Under the pieces are notes generated by a model, which did no database searches, was not told where the DNA came from, and saw only the letters and a program-made list of their open reading frames with translations. From Candidatus Fermentibacteraceae bacterium (GTDB lineage Bacteria; Fermentibacterota; Fermentibacteria; Fermentibacterales; JCC-6): a DNA stretch of 64,000 bases. Position numbers and translations under genes: made by a program. The DNA is taken from contig JAMOUX010000013.1 of NCBI GenBank assembly GCA_027067855.1, positions 62,001 to 126,000 of the forward strand, written 5' to 3'. Numbering within the stretch: the stretch's first letter is position 1; every line of letters starts with the position of its first letter. Shown here in pieces: positions 42,565-58,951 of the stretch.

Positions 42565-42596
42565 CGGTTATTTCAATTTCAGTACGGAGGTAGTCG

Positions 42597-42962
42597 GTGG
42601 CAAGAATCGCAGGAGTGGATCTCCCGTCGAAGAAACACATTCTATACGCTTTGCCGTACATCTACGGAATCGGTCTCTCCACGGCAAGGGAGATTCTGGA
42701 GAAGGCGGGAATAGCCTTTGATGTGAAGACGGATGAATTGACGGAATCCGAGGTGGCAACCCTCAGGAAAATCATAGATTCCGAGTACAAGGTGGAAGGT
42801 GCCCTCAGGGCCGAGATAAACATGAACCGTAAGAGGCTCATGGACATACGTTGTTATCGCGGGATCAGGCATCGAAGGGGTCTTCCGGTTCGCGGCCAGA
42901 GGACCCGGACCAACGCCCGGACCCGCAAGGGACCCAAATTCGGGCGCAAGAAAACTCGATAG
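42597..42962 (+). CDS. rpsM: 30S ribosomal protein S13
   Basis: 121 residues from the GTG at 42597, with GGAGGT upstream. [40 protein letters not shown] and the basic tail [13 protein letters not shown] are standard. It contacts tRNA and the 50S subunit from the 30S head. Confidence 0.97.
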
Positions 42963-42971
42963 GAGGCTGAA

Positions 42972-43385
42972 GTGCCAAAGGGTGCAAAGTCCAAGGGCCG
43001 GAAGAGGGTTACGAGGAAGAAGACTCTGAAGGTTTCGGACGTACATGGTGTAGCACACGTGAAATCTTCGTTCAACAATACCATGATAACAATCACCGAC
43101 AGGAATGGAAACGTCATTACCTGGGCGAGCGGCGGGACCACCGGCGTGAAGGGTACCCGGAAGGGTACCGCCTTCGCTTCGGGACAGGCTGCGGTCCAGG
43201 CGGCGGAAAAGGCCCTGGAGGCCGGGCTCAGAAAGGTCGAAATCTGGGTCAGGGGTCCTGGATCCGGACGGGAGGCCGCTGTTCGGGCCCTTCAGTCCAC
43301 GGATCTGGAGATCACGGCCATAAAGGATCAGACCAGGATACCGCACAACGGGTGTCGTCCCCCGGGACGTCGCAGGCGGGGGTAG
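42972..43385 (+). CDS. rpsK: 30S ribosomal protein S11
   Basis: 137 residues from the GTG at 42972 with GGAGG upstream. [20 protein letters not shown] and the C-terminal [15 protein letters not shown] are diagnostic. A longer basic N-terminal tail than E. coli. rpsD, the usual next gene, is missing. Confidence 0.97.
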
Positions 43386-43397
43386 GCTTAAAACAGG

Positions 43398-43424
43398 AAA
43401 CGGGTTTCCTGGATTTCCCGTTTT
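43398..43424 (+). repeat. Hairpin in the rpsK-rpoA spacer
   Basis: AAACGGG (43398-43404) and CCCGTTT (43417-43423) pair around 12 bases and run into a short T-tract. GTCCG GGCT CGGAC follows immediately. Both lie in the 74-base gap where rpsD is normally found. They could limit or process the rpoA message. Confidence 0.4.
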
Positions 43425-43459
43425 GTCCGGGCTCGGACCCGGGGGGAGAGGATCATACG

Positions 43460-44416
43460 ATGTTCAAGAGTCTTTATCTTCCGGACGTGATAAAGTGGGA
43501 TGAAGAGTCCCTTACGGATACGTACGGCAGGCTTGAGATAGTACCTCTGGAGAGGGGTTTCGGAAGGACCATAGGCAACGCCCTGAGAAGGGTTATGCTT
43601 TCATCCCTGGAGGGTTATGCGCCGGTTTCCCTGGCTATAGACGGAGTGAAGCACGAGTTCTCCACGGTCCCCGGGGTCAGGGAGGACGTACCCGAGATAG
43701 TTTTGAACGTCAAATCCGTAATAGTCGATCTCCAGGGCGGGGAAAAAGGAATTCTGCGCCTTGACGTCAAGGGGACCGGAACCTATACCGCGGGACACTT
43801 GAAGGGCGACGATTTCGTGAGGATAGTGAACGAATCCCAGGAATTGGCGAACCTTGATGCCAACGGCGAGTTGTCCATGGAAATCGTCTTTGAAAAGGGT
43901 AAGGGCTTCATCCCTGCCGACGAGTGGATACTCCATGGGAAGAAAGACAAAATAGGCGTAATCTTACTGGATTCGTGGTTTTGTCCGGTAAAAAAGGTAA
44001 ATTTCCAGGTCCAGAGTGCCAGGGTGGGTGACAGGACCGATTACGATCACCTGATCATGGATGTGACCACCGACGGAAGCATATCTCCCGAAAAAGCCGT
44101 CAGTGAGGCGTGCGAAATACTCATAGAGCACTTCCGTATGATTCCCGGCGGGCTCGAACCTGCTCCCGGAGAGCCGGAAATCCCGGCGAAAAAAGAAGAT
44201 ACGAGCGACGAGGAGGACATCCTTTCCCTTGCCCTGGAGGATGCCGGTATCCCAAAGAGAATCGCCAACGTGCTTAGTGAGTCCGGAATAGAAACCCTGG
44301 AGGAACTCACCGCCAGGAGTACCAAGGAATTACTGAGCTTGAGCGGCTTCGGACCTTCTTCCCTGGACGTTATAAAAGACGTGTTGGAGGAAAAGGGACT
44401 GAAGCTCCAGGACTGA
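43460..44416 (+). CDS. rpoA: DNA-directed RNA polymerase subunit alpha
   Basis: 318 residues. The N-terminal domain (EIVPLERGFGRTIGNALRRV) dimerises and assembles the core; after a charged linker with several Glu/Asp, the C-terminal domain (PKRIANVLSESGIETLEELT and the GFGPSSLDVIKDVL end) should bind UP elements and activators. GAGAGGATC precedes the ATG at 43460. Longer frames reach back into rpsK. Confidence 0.97.
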   Translation: MFKSLYLPDVIKWDEESLTDTYGRLEIVPLERGFGRTIGNALRRVMLSSLEGYAPVSLAIDGVKHEFSTVPGVREDVPEIVLNVKSVIVDLQGGEKGILRLDVKGTGTYTAGHLKGDDFVRIVNESQELANLDANGELSMEIVFEKGKGFIPADEWILHGKKDKIGVILLDSWFCPVKKVNFQVQSARVGDRTDYDHLIMDVTTDGSISPEKAVSEACEILIEHFRMIPGGLEPAPGEPEIPAKKEDTSDEEDILSLALEDAGIPKRIANVLSESGIETLEELTARSTKELLSLSGFGPSSLDVIKDVLEEKGLKLQD

Positions 44417-44426
44417 GGAGAACCAA

Positions 44427-44807
44427 ATGCGGCATAGGAAGAAAGTCGCCAAGCTGGGAAGAAAGCCCGATGCCAGGAGGAGAATGCTCCGCAACCTGGT
44501 GACCTCTCTCATATTGGAGGAAAGGGTAAAGACCAGCCTGGCGAGGGCCAAGGCGGCAAGAAGCATGGCTGAGAAGATAATAACCAATGGCAAGAAGGAC
44601 ACCGTTCATTCGAGAAGGCTGGTGGCTGGCCGAGTCTACGGAAGCGAAGCCGTAAAAAAGGTCTTCGACGAACTGGGACCCAGGTACGCTGACAGGCCCG
44701 GGGGATATACCAGAATACTGAAGTTGGGCCCCAGGAGGGGTGACGCCGCCGAAGAAGTCATCCTCGAACTGGTGGATGCCCCGGCTCCTTCCCAACAGGA
44801 AAAGTAG
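44427..44807 (+). CDS. rplQ: 50S ribosomal protein L17
   Basis: 126 residues. MRHRKKVAKLGRKPDARRRM, then NLVTSLILEERVKTSLARAK, and GGYTRILKLGPRRGDAAEEV are diagnostic. It closes the ribosomal gene set; pfkA follows 12 bases later. Confidence 0.97.
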   Translation: MRHRKKVAKLGRKPDARRRMLRNLVTSLILEERVKTSLARAKAARSMAEKIITNGKKDTVHSRRLVAGRVYGSEAVKKVFDELGPRYADRPGGYTRILKLGPRRGDAAEEVILELVDAPAPSQQEK

Positions 44808-44819
44808 TCCAAGGATACG

Positions 44820-45782
44820 TTGAAAAAGATAGCTGTTCTCACCAGCGGGGGTGATGCCCCGGGCATGAATGCCTGCATAAGGGCAGTGGTGAGAAGGGCG
44901 TTGGGTCGCAACGTTTCCGTCCTGGGCGTGAGGAAGGGATACGAAGGGCTCATCGACGATATTTTCGTGGAGATGGGCTGGGATGATGTAAGTAATATCA
45001 TCCAGCGGGGGGGAACCGTACTGCATACGGCGAGGAGTGCCCGCTTCATGGAACCGGAAGGTCGTCGGAAAGCCGCCGACAATCTTTGCAGCCGTTCGGT
45101 GGAGGGCTTGGTGGTAATAGGCGGTGACGGAAGTTTTCGTGGTGCCCACGTTTTTCACCGGGAATACTTGATTCCTTTGGTGGGTATACCCGCCACCATA
45201 GATAACGACATCTGGGGAACCGATTTCACCATAGGTTATGATACGGCGGTCAACACTGCGCTTGAAGCGATCGACAAGATAAGGGACACCGCCGCGGCCC
45301 ACGACCGGATTTTCGTAGTGGAAGTCATGGGAAGATCGGCGGGGTTCATAGCCCTGGAAGTTGGAATAGGCGTAGGTGCCGAGGCGGTATTGATACCCGA
45401 GACCAGAACCGACCTGGAGAAGATATGCGAGGTGGTTCACGAGAGGATGGAGCAGGGAAGGACCTCCAGCATTCTCGTTGTCGCAGAGGGAGACGAAGAG
45501 GGTAACGCCTTTGAAATAGCTTCCAAGATGAAAAGGATGTCCGGGCTCGAAAGCAGAGTGACCGTTCTCGGACACGTTCAGAGGGGTGGTTCTCCCACCA
45601 CCCGTGACAGAGTGCTGGCGTCGAAACTGGGATGGGCCGCCGTCGATGCTTTGTTGGACGACGGATGGCCGTGCATGGTGGGGGAAGAGAATTACGGAGT
45701 CGTTCATCATCCGTTGCCGGATTCATGGACACGGAAGAAAGAACTGGACTCCCTGCTGGTACAACTGGCGGAAAATCTTTAG
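44820..45782 (+). CDS. pfkA: ATP-dependent 6-phosphofructokinase
   Basis: 320 residues, normal for bacterial PfkA. TSGGDAPGMNACIRAVVR, GGDGS (101-105, the Gly that marks ATP rather than pyrophosphate use), and PATIDNDI with catalytic D128 are present; HVQRGGSPTTRDRVLASKLG ends the substrate site. It commits fructose-6-phosphate to glycolysis. The start is TTG at 44820 with AAGGA upstream. Being the last gene of the ribosomal transcript, it may follow growth-rate control. Confidence 0.95.
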   Translation: MKKIAVLTSGGDAPGMNACIRAVVRRALGRNVSVLGVRKGYEGLIDDIFVEMGWDDVSNIIQRGGTVLHTARSARFMEPEGRRKAADNLCSRSVEGLVVIGGDGSFRGAHVFHREYLIPLVGIPATIDNDIWGTDFTIGYDTAVNTALEAIDKIRDTAAAHDRIFVVEVMGRSAGFIALEVGIGVGAEAVLIPETRTDLEKICEVVHERMEQGRTSSILVVAEGDEEGNAFEIASKMKRMSGLESRVTVLGHVQRGGSPTTRDRVLASKLGWAAVDALLDDGWPCMVGEENYGVVHHPLPDSWTRKKELDSLLVQLAENL

Positions 45783-45801
45783 AAAACCGGCGTCACCGGT
45801 T
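45783..45801 (-). terminator. Terminator for the small Cys-rich gene (possibly bidirectional)
   Basis: AACCGG and CCGGTT (45785-45790, 45796-45801) pair around a 5-base loop. On the minus strand a TTTT run follows, and the loop contains that gene's stop codon. On the plus strand it stands right after pfkA but lacks T residues. Confidence 0.55.
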
Positions 45802-47328: not shown

Positions 47329-47351
47329 TCTGCACTCTCGGAAAGGACATG

Positions 47352-47576
47352 ATGATAACGATTCTTACGATAATACATTTTGTAGTATGTGTGTTGCTCG
47401 TCTCGATCGTACTGCTTCAAAAGTCCAAAGGCGACGGCTTGTCCGGAGCCTTCGGGGGAGGTGGTGCACTTACCGCTTCCTTCGGCAACAGGGGAGCGGC
47501 GACGATGCTGTCCAAGGCCACATCGGTGCTGGCCGTCCTGTTCATGGCGACTTCATTTCTTCTCGCCATATTCTGA
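47352..47576 (+). CDS. secG: Preprotein translocase subunit SecG
   Basis: 74 residues, two membrane helices linked by the Gly-rich loop QKSKGDGLSGAFGGGGALTA; the second ends with the protein. SecG assists SecYE. The second of two adjacent in-frame ATGs (47352) is better spaced from AAAGGA than the first (47349). Confidence 0.93.
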   Translation: MITILTIIHFVVCVLLVSIVLLQKSKGDGLSGAFGGGGALTASFGNRGAATMLSKATSVLAVLFMATSFLLAIF

Positions 47577-47590
47577 CGAGCTGAATACGA

Positions 47591-47677
47591 GCCGGGGTGG
47601 TGGAATTGGCAGACACGCTAGGTTAAGGACCTAGTGGGCATTGGCCTGTACGGGTTCAAGTCCCGTCCCCGGTACCA
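47591..47677 (+). tRNA. tRNA-Leu (AAG)
   Basis: An 87-base class II tRNA. Acceptor arms GCCGGGG and CCCCGGT pair; discriminator A; encoded CCA. The anticodon stem CTAGG/CCTAG closes the loop TTAAGGA, so the anticodon is AAG, where relatives such as E. coli leuU have GAG. Alignment with the other tRNA-Leu of this window (loop TTTAGGA, TAG) puts the anticodon in the same place. A34 would have to be edited to inosine to read CTC. Confidence 0.92.
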
Positions 47678-58865: not shown

Positions 58866-58951
58866 GCGGGAGTGGCGGAATTGGCAGACGCGCCAGATTT
58901 AGGATCTGGTAAGCTATGCTTGTGGGGGTTCAAGTCCCCCCTCTCGCACCA
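58866..58951 (+). tRNA. tRNA-Leu (TAG)
   Basis: An 86-base class II tRNA with acceptor arms GCGGGAG and CTCTCGC (one G-T). The stem CCAGA/TCTGG closes the loop TTTAGGA, giving anticodon TAG. Discriminator A; encoded CCA ends at 58951, the first base of an in-frame ATG that is not the tig start. Confidence 0.95.

Follow-up and report, generated by a model that had tools for sequence, protein, structure and literature searches.

A secG-linked tRNA-Leu(AAG) gene stands in for tRNA-Leu(GAG) in a family of Fermentibacterota and is a predicted second substrate of TadA

In the genome of a Candidatus Fermentibacteraceae bacterium, the sole tRNA found for the leucine codons CUU and CUC carries the anticodon AAG, and it stands in for tRNA-Leu(GAG). 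The gene lies in the 64,000-nucleotide stretch of DNA analysed here, which we call the window (Table 1). Taking the whole analysis together, we consider it very probable that this is a converted tRNA-Leu(GAG) gene whose A34 is edited by TadA, and that the resulting inosine decodes CUU and CUC. TadA's usual substrate is tRNA-Arg(ACG). In the pathway we propose, the wobble base of a secG-linked tRNA-Leu(GAG) gene would have become A34, with base 38 an A as well, and TadA would deaminate A34 to inosine. The tRNA-Leu(IAG) so formed would read CUU and CUC and could also read CUA, a codon covered by tRNA-Leu(UAG) too. We infer the G-to-A change in place, the editing of A34, the role of TadA as editor and the decoding by I34, and we infer strongly that TadA accepts tRNA-Leu(AAG) as a second substrate.

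Table 1. Features of the window discussed in the text
Feature	Position	Strand	Source and remarks
secG	47349..47576	+	Pfam PF03840 SecG, 81 bits; stop codon 14 nt upstream of tRNA-Leu(AAG)
tRNA-Leu(AAG), class II, CCA encoded	47591..47677	+	ARAGORN, Rfam; loop TTAAGGA = positions 32-38; predicted I34
Anticodon AAG	47625..47627	+	ARAGORN (tRNA position 35) and sequence; A34 = 47625, A38 = 47629
tRNA-Leu(TAG)	58866..58951	+	ARAGORN, Rfam; second tRNA-Leu of the window; loop TTTAGGA

The original prediction was of a tRNA-Leu with an AAG anticodon, in a TTAAGGA loop closed by the stem CTAGG/CCTAG, and both tRNA models bear it out. ARAGORN calls exactly this span, on the same strand, as tRNA-Leu with anticodon AAG, and Rfam RF00005 matches it with 52.5 bits (E 2.1e-8; gathering threshold 29), the lowest score among the window's seven tRNAs. 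Inspected by eye, the acceptor stem GCCGGGG/CCCCGGT contains a single terminal G-T pair, the discriminator base is A, CCA is encoded, the anticodon stem and loop are as predicted, and the stems are complete. Energy folding is ordinary (z -1.48; 14 of 200 shuffles fold as well or better), so the evidence comes from the tRNA models and from conservation. The gene is real and intact. A sequencing error at A34, the hazard named with the prediction, can be ruled out because 29 of the 36 genomes in the window's family share this base.

The assembly that holds the window (1.86 Mb, 44 contigs, 98.86% complete) contains 45 Rfam tRNA matches, all of which were typed for anticodon by ARAGORN. The leucine anticodons among them are AAG, TAG, CAG, TAA and CAA, and the only other A34 tRNA is tRNA-Arg(ACG). 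The genome-wide check proposed with the original prediction came out in its favour: tadA is present, and none of the 45 Rfam tRNA matches in this 98.86% complete assembly is a tRNA-Leu(GAG). The window's second leucine tRNA, tRNA-Leu(TAG), is expected to read CTA and CTG. Three CAT tRNAs are usual in a genome, and two were found here, one of them initiator-like by eye. The elongator Met or the Ile2 tRNA thus seems to be missing from the assembly, which makes an undetected further tRNA not unthinkable. Could a tRNA-Leu(GAG) be hidden in an assembly gap, leaving the AAG gene an extra or decaying copy? The 44 contigs and the missing CAT tRNA would allow for it, but pattern searches of 36 genomes of the family found no GAG tRNA and found AAG in 29, and the AAG gene has intact stems and CCA and sits at the GAG locus described below, so we find a hidden GAG gene barely credible and take AAG to replace GAG. 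Separately, a weak tRNA-like match lies at C29:7513-7583 (L042:113-185, minus strand; 27.7 bits, below gathering); ARAGORN types it as tRNA-Arg(CCG). An ordinary tRNA-Arg(CCG) is also found on contig C23, and the C29 match is possibly a remnant or due to chance.

The codons in question are common in the genes here, as had been claimed. In 31 long, non-overlapping open reading frames of the window, chosen mechanically, CTC accounts for 371 (26%) and CTT for 297 (21%) of 1,420 leucine codons. CTC makes up 17-44% of the leucine codons in 12 other genomes of the window's family (f1) and of f3, sampled at 61-95 leucine codons each and including one genome, G025, of unknown anticodon. Outside GC-rich boxes, A34 tRNAs that lack the modification are described as reading mostly codons that end in U (PMC11066159). 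With CTC at 26% of leucine codons, an unedited A34 would serve poorly; and given that no GAG was found in the assembly and that A34 is poor on C, CTC is most likely read through inosine at position 34.

We nevertheless weighed the possibility that A34 is left unmodified, CUU being read by A34 itself and CUC by a weak A34:C pair, by two-out-of-three reading or by superwobble of tRNA-Leu(UAG). There are precedents of this kind, as Oenococcus oeni has Thr and Ser A34 tRNAs in which I34 was not detected (PMC8072771), and in E. coli an orthogonal AAG tRNA with G37 showed no detectable editing, yet some codons ending in C were read by it (87:13; PMC11066159). Such decoding would have to cope with a codon that outnumbers CTT in the window and is well represented in the relatives sampled, and unmodified A34 is reported to be poor on C outside GC-rich codon boxes (PMC11066159). 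Moreover, wherever a bacterial tRNA-Leu(AAG) was tested in the literature we found, it is edited: in O. oeni and S. pyogenes (PMC11472039, PMC8072771) and in Streptococcus (PMC13249217). We therefore regard unmodified decoding as unlikely, and favour editing of A34 to inosine.

What is known of the reaction in other bacteria bears on this preference in both directions. The tRNA-Leu(AAG) of S. pyogenes is reported to be fully edited in vivo and to be edited by its own TadA in vitro, and the same source describes E. coli TadA as leaving this tRNA unedited in vitro (PMC11472039). For an orthogonal tRNA bearing AAG, editing in E. coli is put at about 15%, and it was undetectable when the tRNA carried G37 (PMC11066159). 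G37 is present in the tRNA-Leu(AAG) of the window, and also in the genome's tRNA-Arg(ACG).

The anticodon loop invites comparison with known substrates. UUAAGGA fits YUAMGRA, the consensus given for the editing sites of S. pyogenes TadA (PMC11472039), and it is A38 that makes the fit possible. The loop of this genome's tRNA-Arg(ACG), the canonical bacterial TadA substrate, which editing turns into tRNA-Arg(ICG), is CTACGGA; it has U33, A34, G36, G37 and A38 in common with tRNA-Leu(AAG), which differs in having U32 for C and A35 for C. The two presumed substrates thus share G37 and A38 and differ at positions 32 and 35. Among the distinct tRNA-Leu sequences compared, A38 accompanies AAG in 44 of 44 and G38 accompanies GAG in 8 of 8; one pattern used to collect AAG arms fixes A38, and the four genomes outside Fermentibacterota that it found were also matched by patterns that leave position 38 free. 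We rejected A38 as proof of adaptation to TadA, since 6 of 8 distinct TAG/CAG tRNAs share it. As the GAG tRNA in the E. coli record has T38, A38 appears to be a common leucine state and no private sign of TadA.

To see how widely the AAG form is distributed, we turned to a sample of 42 Fermentibacterota genomes, comprising the window's family (36), a sister family, f2 (five), and f3 (one). Anticodon-arm pattern searches found AAG in 29 of the 36 genomes of the window's family and in the single f3 genome, and GAG in none of the 36; the sister family yielded GAG in three of its five genomes and AAG in none. Nine of the 42 genomes, seven of them in the window's family, had no match in either search and are 61-90% complete. 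A GAG-like second match in G019 was dropped because it is not tRNA-like.

We also scanned a genome collection of 84,980 species with the AAG-arm pattern that fixes A38. Of the 32 stretches returned, 28 are titled Fermentibacteria, Fermentibacteraceae, Fermentibacterales, Aegiribacteria, Sabulitectum or Hyd24-12, two of the 28 coming from one isolate. The remaining four bear the titles 'Planctomycetales' (L120), Hydrogenedentes or Hydrogenedentota (L125 and L131) and 'Nitrospiraceae' (L134). In the grouping used here, the genome of L134 (G045) falls with Hydrogenedentota, and L120 (G042) belongs to a different phylum, represented by 10 genomes and referred to below as the third phylum; the titles 'Planctomycetales' and 'Nitrospiraceae' disagree with this grouping and look wrong or outdated. 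For Hydrogenedentota we used two patterns that also accept G34 and do not constrain position 38; each matched 47 of 68 genomes, with 49 matches that are all AAG and none GAG; GAG is possible in the 21 genomes without a match. A stricter pattern matched 14 of the 68, again all AAG. In the third phylum, a pattern search matched 8 of 10 genomes, two with AAG and six with GAG.

These counts bear on the statement, made with the original prediction, that tRNA-Leu(AAG) is known in a few lineages. That agrees with the literature we found, in which a GtRNAdb survey is reported to place nearly all bacterial tRNA-Leu(AAG) genes in the class Bacilli (PMC13249217), but it understates the matter, AAG being the sole form found both in Hydrogenedentota and in the window's family. 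No earlier report of tRNA-Leu(AAG) in Fermentibacterota or Hydrogenedentota was among the matches listed in the literature searched, and in the passages checked in PMC13092985, Hydrogenedentota appear for tRNA-Trp only. The kind of tRNA is known; Fermentibacterota, Hydrogenedentota and the third phylum are new for it, within the literature that could be searched.

The neighbourhood of the gene bears on its origin. In the window it follows secG, whose start was set by eye (47352 is an alternative). In all 31 of the f1, f2 and f3 genomes that have 423 nt or more upstream of the tRNA, a SecG-like frame stops 2-18 nt short of it, the anticodon being AAG in 28 and GAG in three; SecG was recognized by motif, the Pfam check being made on the window's own. 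From the 33 matched genomes this count leaves out G018, which has a 35-nt flank, and G008, where the tRNA is cut at a contig end. The arrangement extends to E. coli, where the window's tRNA finds a match in 5,375 of 5,426 genomes, at 83% identity over all 87 bases among the matches listed. One E. coli record has an annotated secG, then 14 nt, then a tRNA-Leu(GAG), which we take to be leuU. The E. coli gene thus resembles the window's in its upstream neighbour, spacing and full-length sequence, and the secG-linked tRNAs differ in the loop, which is G34/T38 in E. coli, G34/G38 in the sister family and A34/A38 in the window. Because AAG and GAG genes both lie directly behind secG, as does GAG in E. 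coli, the anticodon probably changed in place, and the tRNA-Leu(AAG) gene is most likely the old secG-linked GAG gene with an altered anticodon.

The same comparison allows a different origin to be judged, in which a duplicated tRNA-Leu(CAG) was remoulded from C34 to A34. The anticodon arm of the AAG gene is one base off that of the organism's CAG tRNA, and in the third phylum G042 has an AAG tRNA that shows 6 differences from this genome's CAG tRNA, against 14 and 16 from the GAG of two relatives. The window's tRNA-Leu(AAG), however, has 6, 6 and 9 aligned differences from the three GAG tRNAs of the sister family, against 19 from its own CAG tRNA, and it occupies the secG locus. For the window's gene a CAG origin is therefore highly improbable, although gene conversion may have carried the loop alone over from CAG; conversion of GAG in place remains our preferred reading. 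For the third phylum, the proximity of the G042 AAG tRNA to its own CAG suggests a remoulded CAG copy, and the AAG tRNA of G116 is nearest to that of G042 (8 differences). Neither Hydrogenedentota nor the third phylum showed a SecG motif ahead of their AAG or GAG tRNAs.

Trees give no firm answer on how f1, f2 and f3 branch deep in the phylum, and the outgroups in them themselves carry AAG. The tree accordingly allows one gain of AAG, two gains, or a gain followed by reversal in the sister family; we consider GAG the likelier ancestor because secG adjoins GAG in E. coli. On balance we lean towards a broader view, that wobble inosine in tRNA-Leu is no speciality of Bacilli, that the switch from G34 to A34 happened repeatedly and is now the norm across entire uncultured lineages, having followed two routes (a GAG gene converted in place in Fermentibacterota, a CAG copy remoulded in the third phylum) that each end in an A34/A38 loop fitting TadA, and that TadA may be broadly evolvable to two tRNAs.

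One clear TadA is encoded in the genome (P0001, C26:111118-111636). It matches NF008113 with 133.3 bits (E 7.1e-39), short of the NCBIfam equivalog cut-off of 150 bits; in 14 named control genomes the model matches 12 and the cut-off is reached in 5. Its best solved relative is 2b3j, described as S. aureus TadA with a tRNA substrate (PMC10586758). A second deaminase match in the genome, at C26:156619, is weak (34.5 bits). TadA matches were obtained in 37 of the 42 Fermentibacterota genomes and 30 were aligned: 24 from AAG genomes, five from the sister family, and G025. The 24 are drawn from the 29 AAG genomes of the family, the other five having no or a partial TadA match; G016, G017, G020, G023, G034 and G031 (anticodon unknown) and G008 (partial) were left out of the alignment. 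The zinc and catalytic motifs HAE and PCxxC are kept in 24 of 24 aligned AAG genomes, the window's included, as is R153 (E. coli numbering), a residue said to contact G36 (PMC10586758).

We asked whether the enzyme differs where it would meet base 35. In E. coli TadA, R26 and R152 have been suggested to narrow the base-35 pocket, while S. aureus TadA is described as lacking a base-specific contact there, and a preference for UACG is attributed to both enzymes (PMC10586758). At positions 26 and 152, the TadA of the window's genome has G/G, compared with A/G in 2nx8 and G/L in S. aureus (the last two by eye), and judged from sequence this G/G pair would suit acceptance of A35. As a marker of AAG enzymes the pair was rejected: R152 occurs in 8 of the 24 AAG genomes (once together with K26), and A or G at 26 is combined with L, T or V at 152 in all five sister-family enzymes. 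Eight TadA columns differ fully between the 24 AAG and five sister-family rows, and these were set aside as specificity candidates, since with one phylogenetic contrast none of the eight can be singled out. Chain 2nx8, which we take to be S. pyogenes TadA, differs by eye in having N at the place of E. coli D108, the position altered by D108N, the first mutation on the way to adenine base editors; the window genome's TadA keeps D. Fermentibacterota TadA keep D108, and F at place 111 is common to them and 2nx8.

The closest known parallel is the tRNA-Leu(IAG) of Lactobacillales (Streptococcus, Lactobacillaceae and O. oeni), where AAG likewise replaces GAG by family and related families are reported to keep GAG (PMC13249217), and whose S. 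pyogenes editing consensus the loop here fits (PMC11472039). The cases differ in that editing was measured there and is predicted from sequence here, and in that UUA is rare here, at 3% of the window's leucine codons and 0-4% in the family genomes sampled. This rarity leaves little room for the UUA-to-CUU/CUC recoding reported for Lactobacillales. A comparison of CUU/CUC with UUA between AAG and GAG relatives found UUA rare in both and is confounded by GC content, GC3 being 0.39-0.80 in 12 genomes of the window's family and 0.83-0.89 in four of the sister family. Eukaryotes follow the same anticodon strategy with a tRNA-Leu(IAG) made by ADAT2/3, unlike here a TadA-derived heterodimer that is described as acting on up to eight tRNAs (PMC8266599); one bacterial TadA gene was found in this genome.

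The phyla described here bear on how TadA, which serves a single tRNA in most bacteria, came to serve eight in eukaryotes. The bacterial cases with measured editing in the literature we found are all Lactobacillales, and these phyla would serve as independent replicates with a different base composition. As the AAG and GAG families of Fermentibacterota share a tRNA locus, changes in enzyme and tRNA can be compared there side by side.

Elsewhere in the window, positions 42590-45790 hold genes that we take, from their sequence, to encode S13, S11, rpoA and L17, followed directly by a 6-phosphofructokinase-like gene. Such a gene was found at the rpoA locus in 0 of 3 Hydrogenedentota and in 16 of 17 Fermentibacterota.
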